Source of the DNA: Candidatus Terrybacteria bacterium RIFCSPHIGHO2_01_FULL_48_17
GTDB taxonomy: Bacteria > Patescibacteriota > Minisyncoccia > Terrybacterales > 2-01-FULL-58-14
DNA length: 37,271 nucleotides
Direction of reading: 5' to 3'
NCBI GenBank assembly: GCA_001822835.1
Contig: MHSS01000001.1
Span: 1 to 37,271, forward strand
Position 1 is the stretch's first letter. Every line of letters begins with the position of its first letter. Below, in pieces: positions 29,821 to 37,271 of the stretch. A model generated the notes under the pieces. The model saw only the letters and a program-made list of their open reading frames with translations. It ran no database searches and was not told the DNA's origin. The translations under genes were made by a program, and so were the position numbers.

Positions 29821-29907
29821 TGGTGCCCCCGGTAGGATTTGAACCTACACGGCCTTTCGGCCCTATGGTCCTAAGCCATAGGTGTCTGCCAATTCCACCA
29901 CGGGGGC
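29821..29907 (-). tRNA. tRNA-Leu (anticodon UAG), CCA encoded
   Basis: GCCCCCGTGGTGGAATTGGCAGACACCTATGGCTTAGGACCATAGGGCCGAAAGGCCGTGTAGGTTCAAATCCTACCGGGGGCACCA, with long variable arm. Confidence 0.95.
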
Positions 29908-29977: not shown

Positions 29978-30364
29978 TTAGCAAGTCAATAAACCGCCAC
30001 CGGTAATTCCTAAAAGCCCGGCAACAACAAGAATGATAACTCGAGCAAGCAAGGCGACAATCAAACCAACAATAGCAAATGTTAAAAGCTTTCGGGCACT
30101 CTCAACTTCTTTTGGATCACCGCCGCCTGTCATGAATTTGAGTGCGGCAACCAACAACATAATAAAGGAAATAATAATGACGATCGCAAAAATCCACAAT
30201 ACAACCACACAAACAATACGATTCCATAAACAAGCCAGAGCACCTTCACGTGCGGTTTCGCATACCGAGTGAGGAATTGGTCCTGGTTGGGCAAGCGCGG
30301 GTAAGGCAAACGCCGAAATAACCGCGAGGGTAACAATGAGCCCGATAAAACGATAGCGCGTCAT
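29978..30364 (-). CDS. T4SS-pilin/VirB2-TrbC-like two-TM protein with C-terminal Cys (pilin 1)
   Basis: Signal peptide (...ALPALAQ), two TMs around TGGGDPKEVESARKLLTFAIVG, ends GGGLLTC*. Confidence 0.75.
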   Translation of the reverse strand: MTRYRFIGLIVTLAVISAFALPALAQPGPIPHSVCETAREGALACLWNRIVCVVVLWIFAIVIIISFIMLLVAALKFMTGGGDPKEVESARKLLTFAIVGLIVALLARVIILVVAGLLGITGGGLLTC

Positions 30365-30430
30365 ATGTTTCAGAATATCATATATTATGATACTTCTAGC
30401 ATAGCATATTGCAACATTCTTGTCCACAAG

Positions 30431-30463
30431 AACAAACCAGCCCCGCAAGGGGGCTAGTTTGTT
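30431..30463 (-). terminator. Hairpin AACAAACcAGCCCC / GGGGCTaGTTTGTT downstream of pilin 2
   Basis: Long near-perfect inverted repeat. Confidence 0.65.
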
Positions 30464-30479
30464 GCTTATGTTGAAGTAA

Positions 30480-30908
30480 TTAGCAACCAAAAATGCTTGC
30501 TCCTTCAATACCCAAAAGTCCCGCCACCACAAAGAGTATCGCTCGCGCAAGAAGCGCTACGGCAATACCGATAATAGCATAGGTGAGCATTTGGCGAGCA
30601 CGGCCTACCTTTTCTTCATCCCCTCCGCCGGTCATAAACGTCAATGCAGCCACCAACAGCATAATGAAGGAAATGACGATGACGATTGCGAAGAACCAAA
30701 GGACACCGGTACACAAGAGATTCCAGAAGTCGCCCGGTCCTGTCACGTCTGTATCAGGAACAGTAGGGATAGGAGCGCCACTCGTGGTGCCTCCTGTAGT
30801 TCCTCCGGTGGTGCCACCAGTGCTAGTAAACTGCGCCAATGCAGCAACCGGAGTAATAAGCATGGAAAGAGTGAGAGCGGTTACAAGTGCTTTGTGCATA
30901 TACTTCAC
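30480..30908 (-). CDS. T4SS-pilin-like two-TM protein with GGTT-repeat N-terminus and C-terminal Cys (pilin 2)
   Basis: MKYMHKALVTALTLSMLITPVAALAQFTSTGGTTGGTTGGTTSG...; loop TGGGDEEKVGRARQ; ends SIFGC*; SD GAAAGGAGGTGAAGT. Confidence 0.8.
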   Translation of the reverse strand: MKYMHKALVTALTLSMLITPVAALAQFTSTGGTTGGTTGGTTSGAPIPTVPDTDVTGPGDFWNLLCTGVLWFFAIVIVISFIMLLVAALTFMTGGGDEEKVGRARQMLTYAIIGIAVALLARAILFVVAGLLGIEGASIFGC

Positions 30909-30918
30909 CTCCTTTCAG

Positions 30919-30943
30919 GTCTGGCTCAACTTGTGTGCCAGAC
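30919..30943 (-). promoter_or_regulatory. 5' UTR hairpin GTCTGGC...GCCAGAC next to the SD of pilin 2
   Basis: 7-bp perfect arms, 11-nt loop; duplicated at 31579-31603. Confidence 0.65.
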
Positions 30944-30957
30944 AGTTACGTGCGTAT

Positions 30958-30974
30958 TGTGACATAAGGTCACA
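30958..30974. promoter_or_regulatory. 17-bp palindrome TGTGAC-ATAAG-GTCACA upstream of pilin 2
   Basis: Perfect 6-bp arms; duplicated at 31618-31634. Confidence 0.6.
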
Positions 30975-31092
30975 GGTAATGCAAGCGGCTTATCCACAAC
31001 AATCAAAAGACCGTTTCATCATAACAGAATACAAGAATTCGACTGACTATTTCATGAATTTTCTACACGTCCGTGTTCTTGCGTGGCATAAA

Positions 31093-31122
31093 CAAAAGCA
31101 ACCCTAAAGAGGGCTGCTTTTG
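31093..31122 (-). terminator. Hairpin CAAAAGCAaCCCT / AGGGcTGCTTTTG downstream of pilin 3
   Basis: Near-perfect inverted repeat. Confidence 0.65.
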
Positions 31123-31139
31123 AAAAAATATACGGCTAA

Positions 31140-31568
31140 TTAACATCCAAAGAAACTGGTATCAGTGACTCCAAGCAATCCGGCGACTATAAACAATATC
31201 GCTCGCGCAAGAAGTGCTACGGCAATACCGATAATAGCGTAGGTAAGCAACCCTCGAGCACGTCCTACTTTCTCTTCGTCACCGCCTCCAGTAATAAACG
31301 TCAATGCAGCCACCAACAGCATAATGAAGGAAATGACGATAACGATTGCGAAGAACCAAAGGACACCGGTACACAAGAGGTTCCAGAAGTCGCCCGTGCT
31401 TGTAACTCCAGAATCGGGAATGGTGGGGATAGGAGCGCCACTCGTGGTGCCTCCTGTAGTTCCTCCGGTGGTGCCACCAGTGCTAGTAAACTGCGCCAAT
31501 GCAGCAACCGGAGTAATAAGCATGGAAAGAGTGAGAGCGGTTACAAGTGCTTTGTGCATATACTTCAC
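31140..31568 (-). CDS. T4SS-pilin-like two-TM protein, near-identical paralogue of pilin 2 (pilin 3)
   Basis: Same length and N-terminal half; ends SFFGC*. Confidence 0.8.
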   Translation of the reverse strand: MKYMHKALVTALTLSMLITPVAALAQFTSTGGTTGGTTGGTTSGAPIPTIPDSGVTSTGDFWNLLCTGVLWFFAIVIVISFIMLLVAALTFITGGGDEEKVGRARGLLTYAIIGIAVALLARAILFIVAGLLGVTDTSFFGC

Positions 31569-31578
31569 CTCCTTTCAG

Positions 31579-31603
31579 GTCTGGCTCAACTTGTGTGCCA
31601 GAC
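31579..31603 (-). promoter_or_regulatory. 5' UTR hairpin GTCTGGC...GCCAGAC next to the SD of pilin 3
   Basis: Second copy of 30919-30943. Confidence 0.65.
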
Positions 31604-31617
31604 AGTTACGTGCGTAT

Positions 31618-31634
31618 TGTGACATAAGGTCACA
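31618..31634. promoter_or_regulatory. 17-bp palindrome TGTGAC-ATAAG-GTCACA upstream of pilin 3
   Basis: Second copy of 30958-30974. Confidence 0.6.
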
Positions 31635-31709
31635 GGTAATGCAAGCGGCTTATCCACATAAACCAATGTCAGCCAAAATTTTTAGGCATCCACTGACCGC
31701 CTTTTTCTT

Positions 31710-32081
31710 TTAGCATCCAGTAAAACTGAGAGGTCGACCACCAATAAGCGCCACCATGCTAAGAGCTATCGCCTGGGCAATAATAACTATTCCCCATCCT
31801 ATTATCGAATAGAACAATGCGTCTTTTGCTTGACGTAATCGTTGTTCGTTACCCCCCGATACTAAAAAGAGAAGCGCTGCCATAAGCAATGCTAAAAGTG
31901 CTAAGGGGAATGCGAACCAAAATACAACGCGTGCAAACAAACAAATCAATCCCGGAAACGAACGAATGGGATCTAAGGGATTGGGTAACGTAAAATCCGC
32001 TTGAACAAACACCCATGGGATAAAAAGAAATAATATCCCCACCAGGGTAAAAAATAGTTTTTTGGAAAGGAATGTACGCAT
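31710..32081 (-). CDS. T4SS-pilin-like two-TM protein with C-terminal Cys (pilin 4)
   Basis: Signal peptide; LICLFARVVFW...FLVSGGNEQRLRQAKDALFYSIIGW...; ends SFTGC*. Confidence 0.75.
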   Translation of the reverse strand: MRTFLSKKLFFTLVGILFLFIPWVFVQADFTLPNPLDPIRSFPGLICLFARVVFWFAFPLALLALLMAALLFLVSGGNEQRLRQAKDALFYSIIGWGIVIIAQAIALSMVALIGGRPLSFTGC

Positions 32082-32093
32082 ATCGAGTAATAC

Positions 32094-32459
32094 TCAACAC
32101 GATGCAGGAAGCGCGCCGAGGTCAACCCCAAGTAAATCAGCGATGATGCGCGGGAGAAGAGAAACTATGAAAAGCGCTACCCAGCCCATAATGGCTGCAA
32201 TAAGAGCCATTCTGGCGCTGCTTATTTTATTTCTTTCTCCCCCTGAAGTCAGAAAAAGGAACGCGGAATACATAATCGCCACAAGCCCTATGGGAATTGA
32301 AAGATAAAACACCCAGTCAAGCAACGAGCACACAATCCCTAAAAGATCCCCTCCCGGGGCTATGGGATTTGTAAAGGTTATCATGGCATATCGCGATGCA
32401 ATGATTGCTGTTGTTGAAAGAAATATGGTTTTTATTTTTTTAAGAAAAATGAGCATCAT
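32094..32459 (-). CDS. T4SS-pilin-like two-TM protein with C-terminal Cys (pilin 5)
   Basis: GIVCSLLDWVFYLSIPIGLVAIMYSAFLFLTSGGERNKISSARMALIAAIMGW...; ends LPASC*. Confidence 0.75.
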   Translation of the reverse strand: MMLIFLKKIKTIFLSTTAIIASRYAMITFTNPIAPGGDLLGIVCSLLDWVFYLSIPIGLVAIMYSAFLFLTSGGERNKISSARMALIAAIMGWVALFIVSLLPRIIADLLGVDLGALPASC

Positions 32460-32495
32460 GTCGATGGGTCTAGAAAAAGGTATCGGAGGAATATA

Positions 32496-33062
32496 TCATT
32501 GTAAGTTGCACCGTAACTGACAAGCCCACTGGCATAGATTTCTATCCACACCGCCTGCGAAACACTCATCAAAACAACTCACATAACATGATGGTCGGGC
32601 AGCACATTGTGGCTCATACCAAGGCCACGGGAAGCCAGAGGGCTGCGTTGATCCGGCAAGCCACACGATGACGGTATTCACAATAGCCCACGCAAGAAGA
32701 ATGATAAGAAAACCAATCAGCGCCGTTTGAAGCATTCCCTTCGCCTTTGATTTAAGCCCGGCGTTGGGAGATGCACCCAGAATTCCTCCGGCAAACAGCA
32801 TCACAACCCCAGAAACAATGATTGCAAAAACCGTCAGTGGAAGCGCAACCTGCAAAACCAAAAAACTAAATATGTTCTGCCCCAAAATAAAAAGGTCGCA
32901 TGGGCGACAGGGAAGAGATTCGTCAATGGGTCTAGTCGTTGGATCGTCCGTCCCTGCCCCGCATGGCACAAGTCCTGCCTGTACGACAGGCAATGCATAA
33001 GCAAAAAAGCTGAGGCCAAAAAGACCGATCAATAGTATCAAAACCCAAATACGAGAATTCAT
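32496..33062 (-). CDS. Pilin-like two-TM protein with cysteine-rich C-terminal tail (protein 6)
   Basis: GLVPCG...LPCRPCDLFILGQNIFSFLV, second TM, then QCAARPSCYVSCFDECFAGGVDRNLCQWACQLRCNLQ. Confidence 0.75.
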   Translation of the reverse strand: MNSRIWVLILLIGLFGLSFFAYALPVVQAGLVPCGAGTDDPTTRPIDESLPCRPCDLFILGQNIFSFLVLQVALPLTVFAIIVSGVVMLFAGGILGASPNAGLKSKAKGMLQTALIGFLIILLAWAIVNTVIVWLAGSTQPSGFPWPWYEPQCAARPSCYVSCFDECFAGGVDRNLCQWACQLRCNLQ

Positions 33063-34435
33063 AATGTTGAACCTTTGGGGTTAAGTTGTCGCAACAATGT
33101 CGTCACGTTCTCCTCGGCGCGCTGCACTGCAGTTCCAGGAGAGGTGCCGTCCTTTACTGATTCTATCATATTTGTGAATATTTCCTCCACGGCAAAATAA
33201 TCCGGCTGGTACCAACTCACAGCCGTAAGAGCTTGACGGGCAAAAGGAGCAAAATCAGGGTTTGATACGTATTCTGAAATAAGCTCGCGATGTGCCGGAG
33301 GGCGGCCGGTGTTATCAAGATAAATGCGTGCCTTGTCAAAAAGCGCCAAACTCGCGACTAAAGACCACGCCGCTTTTTGCTTTTGTGACGATTTTAATAC
33401 CGCAAGGCCGAAATAATTAGGATACGTTACGGCAATCCCTTGATCCCGAAGCGCTTGTGGTTGAGGTACGGAAGCAACTGCAAAATTAAGTTGCGGAGCG
33501 CGTTCACGAATAAGCGAAACCGTATGGGAATAATTAAACATCATAGCAAGTTTCCCATCTACAAAAGCATCCACCGAATAAGGAACGAGAGGAGCACGAT
33601 CCCAAGAATAGGCGGTGGTTGTAGGATCGGCAAATTGGGCATAAAATCTTAGCGCATCTTCTCCAGGAGAAAAGGTATTGCCTTCACTCGTTACGTTCCG
33701 GGAAAATGTTGCCTTAGTGCGGTCATCTGAAACCATTTTTGTTCCCGTCTGCAGCATCAACATACTCATAATATCTGCTGCGCGATTTACATTGCGCGCT
33801 GTTCCCATCGCGGCCCCGGAAATACGAATGCTCCCGTCTGGATTCAATTCAGTAAGTTCCGCTGCATCATCAAGGAATTCTTTCCAGGTCTGCGGCGGTT
33901 GTGTTATTCCCTTGGTATTAAATAAATCCCGATTCCAATACAATCCCAGGGTATCCACATACAAAGGAAGAGCCCATACGTTCCACTGCCCCTCTTCGAT
34001 TGAAGTAAAATCATTTGCGACCACATCAACATATACGTTACGGTATTCTTCTTCTGTAATGCCCCAAAGTCCGGGCGGCATAGGACTTAACTTGTCTTTA
34101 AATTTCGCAAGCCATGTATTATGTAAATAAATAATATCAGGGCCCCGTCCGGCAGCAACGGCATTCAATACTTCTCGCTCAAATTCTTCAAAAGGAATCT
34201 CGCGATACATGACATCGCCCGCAAGCAAGCCACCGGGACCGGTATTTTCTGGGAGAAACCCCTCTAAGCTCCGGTTATCATCAAAAACGCCCCAAATTTC
34301 AAGGTCAGCACCTGCTTCCGGCTTATTGGTGATGGAAAAACAAGCTCCCGTGACAATACATCCCAATCCTCCAAGGACAATAAGCCCAAGAACGATTAAA
34401 ACAACAATTTTTTGGGGAGTGAACGATTGAAACAT
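33059..34435 (-). CDS. Membrane-anchored extracellular solute-binding protein (ABC-type family 1)
   Basis: N-terminal TM (KIVVLIVLGLIVLGGLGCIVTGAC); GRGPDIIYLHNTW, WNVWALPLYVDTLGLYWNRDLFNTKGITQPPQTWKEFLDDAAELT, DAFVDGKLAMMFNYSHT. Confidence 0.9.
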   Translation of the reverse strand: MFQSFTPQKIVVLIVLGLIVLGGLGCIVTGACFSITNKPEAGADLEIWGVFDDNRSLEGFLPENTGPGGLLAGDVMYREIPFEEFEREVLNAVAAGRGPDIIYLHNTWLAKFKDKLSPMPPGLWGITEEEYRNVYVDVVANDFTSIEEGQWNVWALPLYVDTLGLYWNRDLFNTKGITQPPQTWKEFLDDAAELTELNPDGSIRISGAAMGTARNVNRAADIMSMLMLQTGTKMVSDDRTKATFSRNVTSEGNTFSPGEDALRFYAQFADPTTTAYSWDRAPLVPYSVDAFVDGKLAMMFNYSHTVSLIRERAPQLNFAVASVPQPQALRDQGIAVTYPNYFGLAVLKSSQKQKAAWSLVASLALFDKARIYLDNTGRPPAHRELISEYVSNPDFAPFARQALTAVSWYQPDYFAVEEIFTNMIESVKDGTSPGTAVQRAEENVTTLLRQLNPKGSTL

Positions 34436-34447
34436 AGAAGAGTATAA

Positions 34448-34990
34448 TTATTTTAGCAGAAATAACAGGCCCCAATGGTATTTGCCTGCAGAGATCGATG
34501 CGTGTTTCGAAAAACCAAAGCCCTTCGCCGCCTCAATAATGCTTTCCTTGTTAATGCGTTGCTCCCGAGACGGACCGTAAGGGGTCGACGTATCTTCCCA
34601 ATCAACGACTACCAAACGCCCGTTGTCTTTAAGCACACGCCGTGCTTCTTTGAAAACATTTCCGTGGTTTTTAATTTGAAACAAAAGATTAACGCAAAAT
34701 ACGGTATCGCATACATGATCGCCGATATAAGAACCTAATTCTTTTTCAAGATCCCCTAAAATCACATGAACTTGAGGTAACCCCAGTCGTTTTGCGCGGG
34801 AAGAAACAACGGAAAGGGCTTCTTTTCTTATATCAACCGCATATACTGCTCCTTCGGTACCCACGGCGCGCGCTAACGGAACAGTAAGATAACCGTGTCC
34901 GCAGCCAAAATCAGCAACAAAAAATCCCTTTTGCGCGCCATCGCTATTTGTAATGATCTCGTGTGGCCTGAGAAACGATTCGTCGTCCAT
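34448..34990 (-). CDS. Class I SAM-dependent methyltransferase
   Basis: FFVADFGCGHGYLTVPLARAVGTEGAVYAVDIRKEAL; EARRVLKDNGRLVVVDW. Confidence 0.9.
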   Translation of the reverse strand: MDDESFLRPHEIITNSDGAQKGFFVADFGCGHGYLTVPLARAVGTEGAVYAVDIRKEALSVVSSRAKRLGLPQVHVILGDLEKELGSYIGDHVCDTVFCVNLLFQIKNHGNVFKEARRVLKDNGRLVVVDWEDTSTPYGPSREQRINKESIIEAAKGFGFSKHASISAGKYHWGLLFLLK

Positions 34991-35002
34991 ATGCTTTTAT
35001 AA

Positions 35003-37271
35003 TTAGAGCACGCGAACAGCAAGAATTGCGTCCCCGGAATCTAACCTCATAAGCCGCACCCCCTGCGCTCCCCGCGACAAGGACTTAATCTGACGCAATG
35101 CGATACGTAATACAAGGCCTCTACGCGAAACCGCAAATGCCTCTTCGGTCTCTTGCACCGCTACAGCAACTCCCACAACGCTACCAGTTTTTCCGCTCGT
35201 TGGCATGGCACGCAAACCAGTTCCCCCCCGCTTCTGCCGCTTGAACGCAGATGCCTCAACTAATTTTCCAAAACCATGTAACCCAACCAACAAAATGCGC
35301 GCTCCTTCTTGATTTGTGGGAATGGCCACCGCACCAATAACTCTATCATCCTTACGCAAACGGATACCCCGAATACCTCCTGCCTGTCGTCCCATGAAAC
35401 GCGCATCGCGTTCCGAAAAACGCAACGCTTGTCCCTGTTGCGTAAGCAAAAGAATATCGTCTTTGCCCCCGGTGCGAAGAGCGGCAACCAACGAATCGCC
35501 TCCAGCAAGAGATATCACTCCCATACCTTGCCTCCGCACCGACTGAAAGGCAGCTGTTTGCATGCGCTTCACTGCGCCGCGCGACGTAATCAATATCAAT
35601 GATCCCTCTTTTTCTTTTTCCGATACTGCAACAAGCGCCAGAACTTCCTCGTTTGCTGCAAGCGCAAGCACATTTACCAAAGCCCTTCCTCGGGACGTGC
35701 GCGATGCTTCAGGAACTTCGTATGCCCGAACCGTACATACCCTTCCTCGTTCTGTAAAAAATAAAATGCGATCGTGGGTATTGGCAACAATAAGATGCGC
35801 AAGCGCCTCGGATTCGTTCAGTTCAATTCCCGAAACCCCGCGACCTCCTCGTTGCTGTATACGAAACGAAGAAGGCGGCAATCGCTTAATGTAGCCGTCG
35901 GATGTCAGCGCAATAACCGCGGGGGCTTCTTGCACAAGATCTTGAAGTTTGATTTCAGAAATAGCTTCTTGCTTTACTTCGGTCTTGCGCTTATCGCCAA
36001 AACGTTCTAAAACTTCATGCAGTTCTTTTTTCAGTACTCGAATAAGCGATTTTGGATTTTTTAAAATATCCTCTAACTCCAAAATCAACGCGCGCTTTTC
36101 TTTTGCCTCTTGCAAAATTCGGTCCCGCTCAAGGCGCGCTAACGAGGCAAGAGGCATCGCAAGAATAGCTGATGCTTGTACGTCCGAAAACTTGAAGCGT
36201 ATACGCAATGCCTTGTGCGCCTCATCGCGGCTTGCGGAAGCACGAATCAATTTAATAATTGCATCGATATGCGCAAGCGCCTTGGTTAATCCGTCTAAAA
36301 TGTGGAGCCGTTCTTTCGCACGGGAAAGCTCAAATAAAGAACGTTTTGAAATAAGTTCTTTGCGAAAATCTAAAAACTCTTGCAGAAGTTCCTTGAGCGA
36401 ATAGAGCTTCGGGCGAATCCCGTGGTCAAGCGCAAGAAGATTTACATGATAGGTGCGTTGCAAATCCGTGTATTTAAAGAGCGCCGCAAGAACAACTTGC
36501 GCAGTTGCATCCTGACGCAAATCGATAACAACACGGATCCCCTCCTTATCTGACTCGTCGCGCACATCCCGTATACCTTCCACTTTTCGGTCACGGATAA
36601 GATCGACAATTTGTTCAAGAATGGCTGCCTTTCGCACTTCATATGGAATTTCGGTAATAACAATACGGGATGATTTTCTTTCGGAGGTTTCAATTTCGGC
36701 ACGTCCCTGCACAACCACTGGACCCTTGCCTTGTGTATAAACCGATATGAGATCTTTGGCATTATAGATAATTCCGCCGGTAGGAAAATCTGGGCCAGAA
36801 ATTATCGCAACAAGGTCATCGTGAGAAGCAGATGGTTTATCGATAAGCAAAAGACACCCGGAAATGATCTCGGAAAGATTGTGAGGCGGTATTGCGGTTG
36901 ACATGCCAACTGCAATACCAATCGCACCATTTGCCAAAAGATGCGGAAAGGAAGCGGGGAGAACTTGAGGTTCGGTGCGCGTACCATCGTAATTGGGAAC
37001 GAAAGCAACCGTTTCCTTATCAATATCTGCGAGCAAAAGTTCCGCTATCGGATGAAGACGCGCTTCTGTATAGCGCATTGCCGCAGCAGCATCGCCGTCA
37101 ATTGACCCGAAATTTCCTTGTCCGCGAATTAAAGGATAGCGCAGCGAGAACGGCTGCGCCATCCGAACCAAAGCATCATACACTGCCTGGTCGCCGTGCG
37201 GGTGAAATTTTCCAAGGACCTCCCCTACCACCCGTGCGGATTTCACGGCACGCGCCTGTGGCCCAAGACCC
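35003..37271 (-). CDS. gyrA: DNA gyrase subunit A (5' truncated by the window edge)
   Basis: [63 protein letters not shown]; GyrA box QQRGGRG; frame stays open to 37271. Confidence 0.96.

Follow-up and report, generated by a model that had tools for sequence, protein, structure and literature searches.

The pilin array

The window analyzed here is a stretch of 37,271 nucleotides from Candidatus Terrybacteria bacterium RIFCSPHIGHO2_01_FULL_48_17 (contig MHSS01000001.1, positions 1 to 37,271; order Terrybacterales, class Minisyncoccia), whose genome of 865 kb is represented by 16 contigs and is ~99% complete. On its minus strand, between 29978 and 33062, there are six T4SS_pilin open reading frames (ORFs) in tandem, which match a pilin family of type IV secretion systems (T4SS). 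Pilins 1 to 5 each end in a cysteine and have another at the edge of the first transmembrane helix (TM1). These cysteines probably form a disulfide bond that closes the pilin at its outer end. The features of the array are as follows.

29978..30364, minus strand: pilin 1, 128 residues from the likely ATG; PF18895 score of 30.9 bits
Up to TTG 30550, minus strand: longest ORF of pilin 1
30260-30262, 30230-30232, 30209-30211 (TM1 edge), and 29981-29983 (last residue), minus strand: outer cysteine codons of pilin 1
30439..30455: GC-rich hairpin between pilin 2 and pilin 1, a possible terminator
30480..30899, minus strand: pilin 2 from its likely ATG start; GTG start of the ORF at 30908
30711-30713 (TM1 edge) and 30483-30485 (last residue), minus strand: cysteine codons of pilin 2
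31140..31559, minus strand: pilin 3 from its likely ATG start; GTG start of the ORF at 31568; modeled with AlphaFold2
31371-31373 (TM1 edge) and 31143-31145 (last residue), minus strand: cysteine codons of pilin 3
31710..32081, minus strand: pilin 4; cysteine codons at 31941-31943 (TM1 edge) and 31713-31715 (last residue)
32094..32459, minus strand: pilin 5; cysteine codons at 32328-32330 (TM1 edge) and 32097-32099 (last residue)
32496..33062, minus strand: protein 6, the array-leading pilin, of a class-wide subfamily; modeled with a C-terminal helical hairpin
33059..34435, minus strand: extracellular solute-binding protein (SBP_bac_1), the end of its gene overlapping the start of protein 6

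Start codons were judged by sequence and ribosome-binding site, without a start-prediction tool. For pilin 1, the ATG at 30364 is the probable start, since the TTG at 30550 falls within pilin 2. In pilins 2 and 3, it is an ATG (30899 and 31559) that lies three codons past the GTG and ~8 nucleotides past a GGAGG. These two genes are a tandem duplicate with 88% identity over 300 nucleotides, and the 30 bases 5' of their starts are identical. The paralogues of the array have 23-52% identity to pilin 1. Promoter-like hexamers lie 5' of pilin 1 (30387-30426), but neither these nor the hairpin near pilin 1 is more frequent here than in shuffled sequence. The array has gyrA, methyltransferase, and solute-binding protein genes as neighbors, and virB4 is located elsewhere. 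A tRNA-Leu gene (TAG; 29821-29907, minus strand) adjoins the array on its downstream side.

Family membership and topology

A profile search of the genome placed pilins 1 to 3 above the 26.6-bit cut-off of PF18895 (T4SS_pilin), with 30.9, 28.3, and 26.8 bits. Pilins 4 and 5 and protein 6 scored below it (25.5, 21.6, and 21.3 bits), with E values of 1e-5 to 2e-4. PF18895 is matched by all members of the aligned pilin set (34/34). PF04956 (TrbC/VirB2) is matched, at E <= 0.01, by 13/34 of the same pilins and by 12/21 relatives of protein 6, the best value being 2.3e-9; it was not listed for the window's own six proteins in the profile search of the window. An earlier note on this DNA had called these proteins VirB2/TrbC-type pilins, and the family matches agree with this. 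Weak matches to NF045849, the Mbov_0395 family, were found for proteins 1, 2, and 6 (E 0.0017 to 0.055). A search for related loci found no conserved stretch in the pilin alignment and, with pilin 3 alone, no relative. PF18895 matches were found in 55/55 genomes of the search for relatives, including the organism's own. The best matches of gyrA include Kerfeldbacteria and Moranbacteria at 47% identity.

The AlphaFold2 model of a trimmed pilin 3 has helices at 15-50 and 55-89 and a loose ten-residue tail, with a mean confidence score (predicted local distance difference test, pLDDT) of 77.7. Neither the model of pilin 3 nor that of protein 6 had a significant Foldseek match in the PDB. Foldseek typically gives no significant match for helical hairpins. 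From the signal peptide, the charged GG(D/N/E) loop, the helix prediction, and knowledge of the family, we infer that the loop lies inside and that both cysteines lie on the same, outer side of the two-helix hairpin. Judging by its length, the tail could allow the last residue to reach the edge of TM1.

Cysteines of the array and of the order

The six ORFs and the five cysteine ends that the earlier note had quoted are all present in the sequence. Pilins 1 to 5 end in LLTC, IFGC, FFGC, FTGC, and PASC, with cysteine as the last residue each time, and the TM1-edge cysteines, also claimed there, are C114 (pilin 1, numbered from the TTG of its ORF), C66, C66, C47, and C44. Pilin 1 possesses two further outer cysteines, C97 and C107. 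In the same set of loci, a C-terminal cysteine occurs by chance in 3/312 long non-pilin ORFs. The five ends are not independent because the pilins of the array are paralogues, and therefore pairing across genomes is the stronger test.

The arrays of the four available genomes of the order, from three genera, were compared. They contain 21 ordinary pilins, of which 20 are readable: both outer cysteines are present in 19, and neither is present in the remaining one (L039, 3168-3557). In the other pilin, which contains masked bases (L061:10014-10391, genome G001), the frame shifts past the masked run and the tail cysteine is unreadable. The cysteine is exactly last in 14/19 of the paired pilins, and 1-2 residues follow it in 5/19. 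In a fusion protein of 921 residues from G003 the pair is also kept, the tail cysteine standing at the equivalent position with ~780 residues beyond it. The proposal that a terminal cysteine is conserved in homologues thus stands for the pair, which is kept or lost jointly within the order, but not for its strictly terminal position. As judged from the sequences, the conserved trait is a cysteine ~11-17 residues past the second transmembrane helix (TM2), not the terminal residue as such. In an alignment of 17 pilins the tail cysteine is invariant and the TM1-edge cysteine nearly so, at a mean column identity of 38%; these pilins were selected for having the pair, and the order-wide counts (19 and 1) are therefore the informative ones.

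Two related genomes carry pilin-domain proteins of 870-920 residues inside their arrays (L039:4227-6848 and L040:5861-8626, both on the minus strand). Both have PKD repeats, and that of L039 also has a C-terminal PA14 domain. These are possibly adhesin-bearing pilins.

Cysteine pairing across the class

Array regions from 45 further genomes of the class were examined, giving 168 ordinary single-core pilins, of which 147 are outside the order. By their sequences, the TM1-edge/tail pair is mainly specific to the order, and pilins of other lineages have two cysteines on the N-side or two in the tail. In a phylum-wide sample, the most frequent layout has two cysteines before TM1. The majority of the 147 class pilins have no outer cysteine. 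Among those that do, the number of outer cysteines is even in 33 and odd in 7 when the whole mature N-segment is counted. An overdispersed null leads to an expectation of ~28 odd, and 0/20000 simulations were as low as 7. An earlier count with a fixed N-window of 30 residues gave 27 even and 13 odd; the window was widened after the first parity counts had been seen, and both counts point in the same direction. Some of the odd-count pilins have an extra cysteine in the signal peptide or upstream of the start codon.

A lone tail cysteine is accompanied by an N-side partner in 8/8 class pilins, which was matched by 0/20000 shuffles, while only 24% of class pilins outside the order have an N-side cysteine overall. 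Five class pilins have two tail cysteines, which stand as local pairs such as CNFFGASC and CSFVGFVC, and CPGSTC is an example of a local N-side pair in other families. The membrane core contains 7 cysteines in 9828 residues, about 10 times rarer than the 0.65% of background ORFs. Pairing recurs in several families, including unrelated ones. A preference for even numbers of cysteines in exported proteins is an accepted sign of disulfides (PMC7678975), and the even-number statistics of these sequences favor disulfides over chance.

Protein 6 and its gene neighborhood

Protein 6 has ten cysteines, seven of them in the tail, as the earlier note had counted. C34, C52, C55, and C153 are conserved. 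Further tail cysteines are C159, C163, C167, C177, C181, and C185, with the symmetric spacing C-x3-C-x3-C-x9-C-x3-C-x3-C. Across the class, its subfamily can be recognized by a signature of VPCG..C..C[DH]LF before TM1 and PWPW....C after TM2. In 21 relatives of protein 6, C5, C23, C26, and C124 (numbering of alignment A4) are invariant or nearly so. This alignment is a better record than the parity count, in which automatic trimming clips the first cysteine of some of these relatives. The model of protein 6 places two helices in the tail (129-140 and 145-158, A4 numbering). Such helices and the symmetric six-cysteine spacing could allow a helical hairpin bridged by three nested disulfides. Its role as a tip or base subunit, which the earlier note had suggested, is a guess. 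No convincing relative was found in the PDB by sequence search; a VirB2 chain appeared with the protein-6 profile as a very weak match (E 0.8).

In most loci of the class, a pilin of the protein-6 type is the first of the array and directly follows the gene for the solute-binding protein. A same-strand pilin ORF lies no more than 300 bases downstream in 38/39 of the solute-binding protein loci, and gyrA and the methyltransferase gene are usually found upstream, as in the window. The order gyrA, methyltransferase, solute-binding protein, protein-6-type pilin, and pilin array recurs in the class and corresponds to 32496-37246 of the window. Rather than belonging to a transporter, the solute-binding protein may be a pilus partner.

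Secretion and oxidation genes elsewhere in the genome

The earlier note had proposed searching the genome for VirB4 and for DsbA or VKOR, and genes of each kind are present. Contig 4 carries, beside dnaA, a P-loop_TraG ATPase (VirB4-like) and a weak match to TrbL/VirB6. Directly after the VirB4-like gene is a gene for a protein of 361 residues that combines a T4SS_pilin domain with a cysteine-rich tail (L038:9707-10792, plus strand). Similar proteins are present in genomes G001 and G002.

VKOR and DsbA-like Thioredoxin_4 proteins were each found in 4/4 genomes of the order. In the organism's own genome the VKOR is fused to a thioredoxin domain, and two DsbA-like proteins are present. The VKOR-thioredoxin fusion, on contig 11 (L119:349-1998, minus strand), is followed by a 244-residue membrane protein. 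This membrane protein looks CcdA/DsbD-like by eye and had no Pfam match at E 0.001. The expectation that VKOR would track cysteine-bearing ordinary pilins class-wide was dropped: among 49 genomes, such pilins occur in 15/23 with VKOR and in 16/26 without it, which is no association.

Comparison with known pilins

Arrays of VirB2-like genes have been described in Patescibacteria (Quinonero-Coronel et al., 2025; PMC12102498), with 441 arrays of 2-11 genes in 383 assemblies and an average identity of 25%. According to citing statements in PMC12102498 and PMC12857230, a pilin array is essential in a cultured episymbiont of the phylum. The array of the window is like the published ones in its tandem, divergent PF18895 genes and in a genome with VirB4 and VirB6 homologues near dnaA. 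It is different in being distant from virB4 and in adjoining gyrA, methyltransferase, and solute-binding protein genes. Disulfides are not mentioned in PMC12102498, where the single use of "cysteine" concerns VirB1. No description of disulfide closure for T4SS or conjugation-type pilins, of cysteine pairing in Patescibacteria arrays, or of a pilus structure from Patescibacteria was found in the literature. Pilin arrays in Patescibacteria were thus already published, and what is new here is the cysteine pairing.

In TrbC of RP4 and TrhA of R27, which are also pilins of two helices, a covalent bond joins the N and C ends on the outer side (PMC12037004, PMC13031515). This closure is essential for TrhA pili (PMC12037004). 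In these pilins a peptide bond is made after C-terminal trimming, whereas the window pilins would use a side-chain disulfide that leaves the N-terminal extension free. No trimming would be needed, because the cysteine is at or near the encoded end. By analogy, the window pilins may work like the cyclic TrbC and TrhA. VirB2 of Agrobacterium tumefaciens, named alongside TrbC in the earlier note, is of the same general pilin type as the window pilins (PF04956 matches 13/34 of the aligned set), but it is acyclic in cryo-EM (PMC9905601, PMC12037004). The paper on the T-pilus structure does not mention cysteine or disulfide (PMC9905601). Another pilin-like conjugal transfer protein, Mbov_0395 of mycoplasma integrative and conjugative elements (NF045849), is more distant; window matches reach at most 18 bits against a cut-off of 40.

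Proposed disulfide closure and its alternatives

Taken together, the sequences and the analogy with TrbC and TrhA make it probable that these are T4SS pilins closed by intramolecular disulfides and functioning like the peptide-cyclised ones. The array would encode subunits of the major-pilin type (VirB2/TrbC) for a chromosomal T4SS. A signal peptide would direct the export of each subunit. In the membrane, the subunit would form a hairpin of two helices joined by a charged loop on the cytoplasmic side, so that the C-terminal tail and the beginning of TM1 would both face outward. After export, the VKOR-thioredoxin fusion and the DsbA-like proteins could oxidize the tail cysteine and its TM1-edge partner within one subunit. 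The resulting disulfide would close the hairpin at its outer end, akin to the peptide bond of TrbC and TrhA, with the N-terminal extension left free on the surface and the pilin or the pilus stabilized. Protein 6 would be a distinct, more heavily cross-linked pilin with a tail that may form a three-rung disulfide hairpin. The earlier note had proposed outward-facing cysteines and a disulfide that closes the pilin; the same-side placement is what the predicted topology suggests, and for the bond itself the pairing statistics speak in favor.

Several points weigh against this interpretation. The array is on contig 1 and is not adjacent to the VirB4/VirB6-like genes of contig 4. The tail of pilin 3 is modeled at low confidence (pLDDT 59 in the last block), and cysteines on the same side need not touch, because in the acyclic T-pilus the modeled termini are ~34 Å apart (PMC9905601). 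The 0/20000 shuffle values overstate the evidence, since the sequences of the class are related. As VKOR shows no association with cysteine-bearing pilins, it alone is not the explanation.

Disulfides could instead connect neighboring subunits, which would staple the filament or link the various pilins of the array to one another. Both cysteines are on the same side, the pilin ends are at the filament surface in TrhA (PMC13031515), and the array encodes several paralogues that share the pair. Two cysteines per protein would also be expected if one served each neighbor. But close-spaced pairs such as CPGSTC and CNFFGASC are most simply local and intramolecular, and the lone tail cysteine always has a partner in the same protein, which partners on other pilins would not require. 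The alternative layouts keep both cysteines in one segment, so bonds within the subunit are favored and those between subunits seem unlikely.

It is quite improbable that the terminal cysteine is a functionless accident of the lineage in an expanded paralogue family. The exact TM1-edge/tail pair is indeed found mostly within one order (four sampled genomes), and paralogues inherit residues. Yet with only 23-52% identity to pilin 1, the cysteine columns are among the few that are invariant or nearly so, one pilin has lost both cysteines jointly (L039, 3168-3557), and pairing is found in unrelated families of the class.

Metal binding, lipid carriage, or a redox site (the CxxC of protein 6) in place of structural disulfides is highly improbable: relatives of protein 6, with a TM1-edge CxxC and two more conserved cysteines, could hold a four-cysteine metal site, but ordinary pilins with outer cysteines mostly have only two, which change segment and are still paired, and oxidation is favored where VKOR and DsbA-like proteins serve the outer compartment. 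A lipid role for the terminal cysteine was considered and dropped, as no supporting motif was found.

Beyond closure in the window pilins, a wider reading can be put forward tentatively, although we lean against it. Patescibacteria in general would use disulfides to close their conjugation-type pilins, a task for which other systems rely on peptide cyclisation. The layouts would be interchangeable and number three or more (from TM1 edge to tail, two cysteines before TM1, and two after TM2). A dedicated, multiply cross-linked pilin would lead the array, and the pilus of a single-membrane episymbiont would depend on extracytoplasmic oxidation.

A sequence signature is now available for the array-leading subunit. 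If disulfide closure is true, there is a second chemistry for the covalent closure of the outer end of the pilin fold, a closure that TrhA pili require, and the pili would be predicted to be redox-sensitive. Such a property would concern a family of which one pilin array is reported to be essential to a cultured Patescibacterium in its host-dependent life (PMC12857230).

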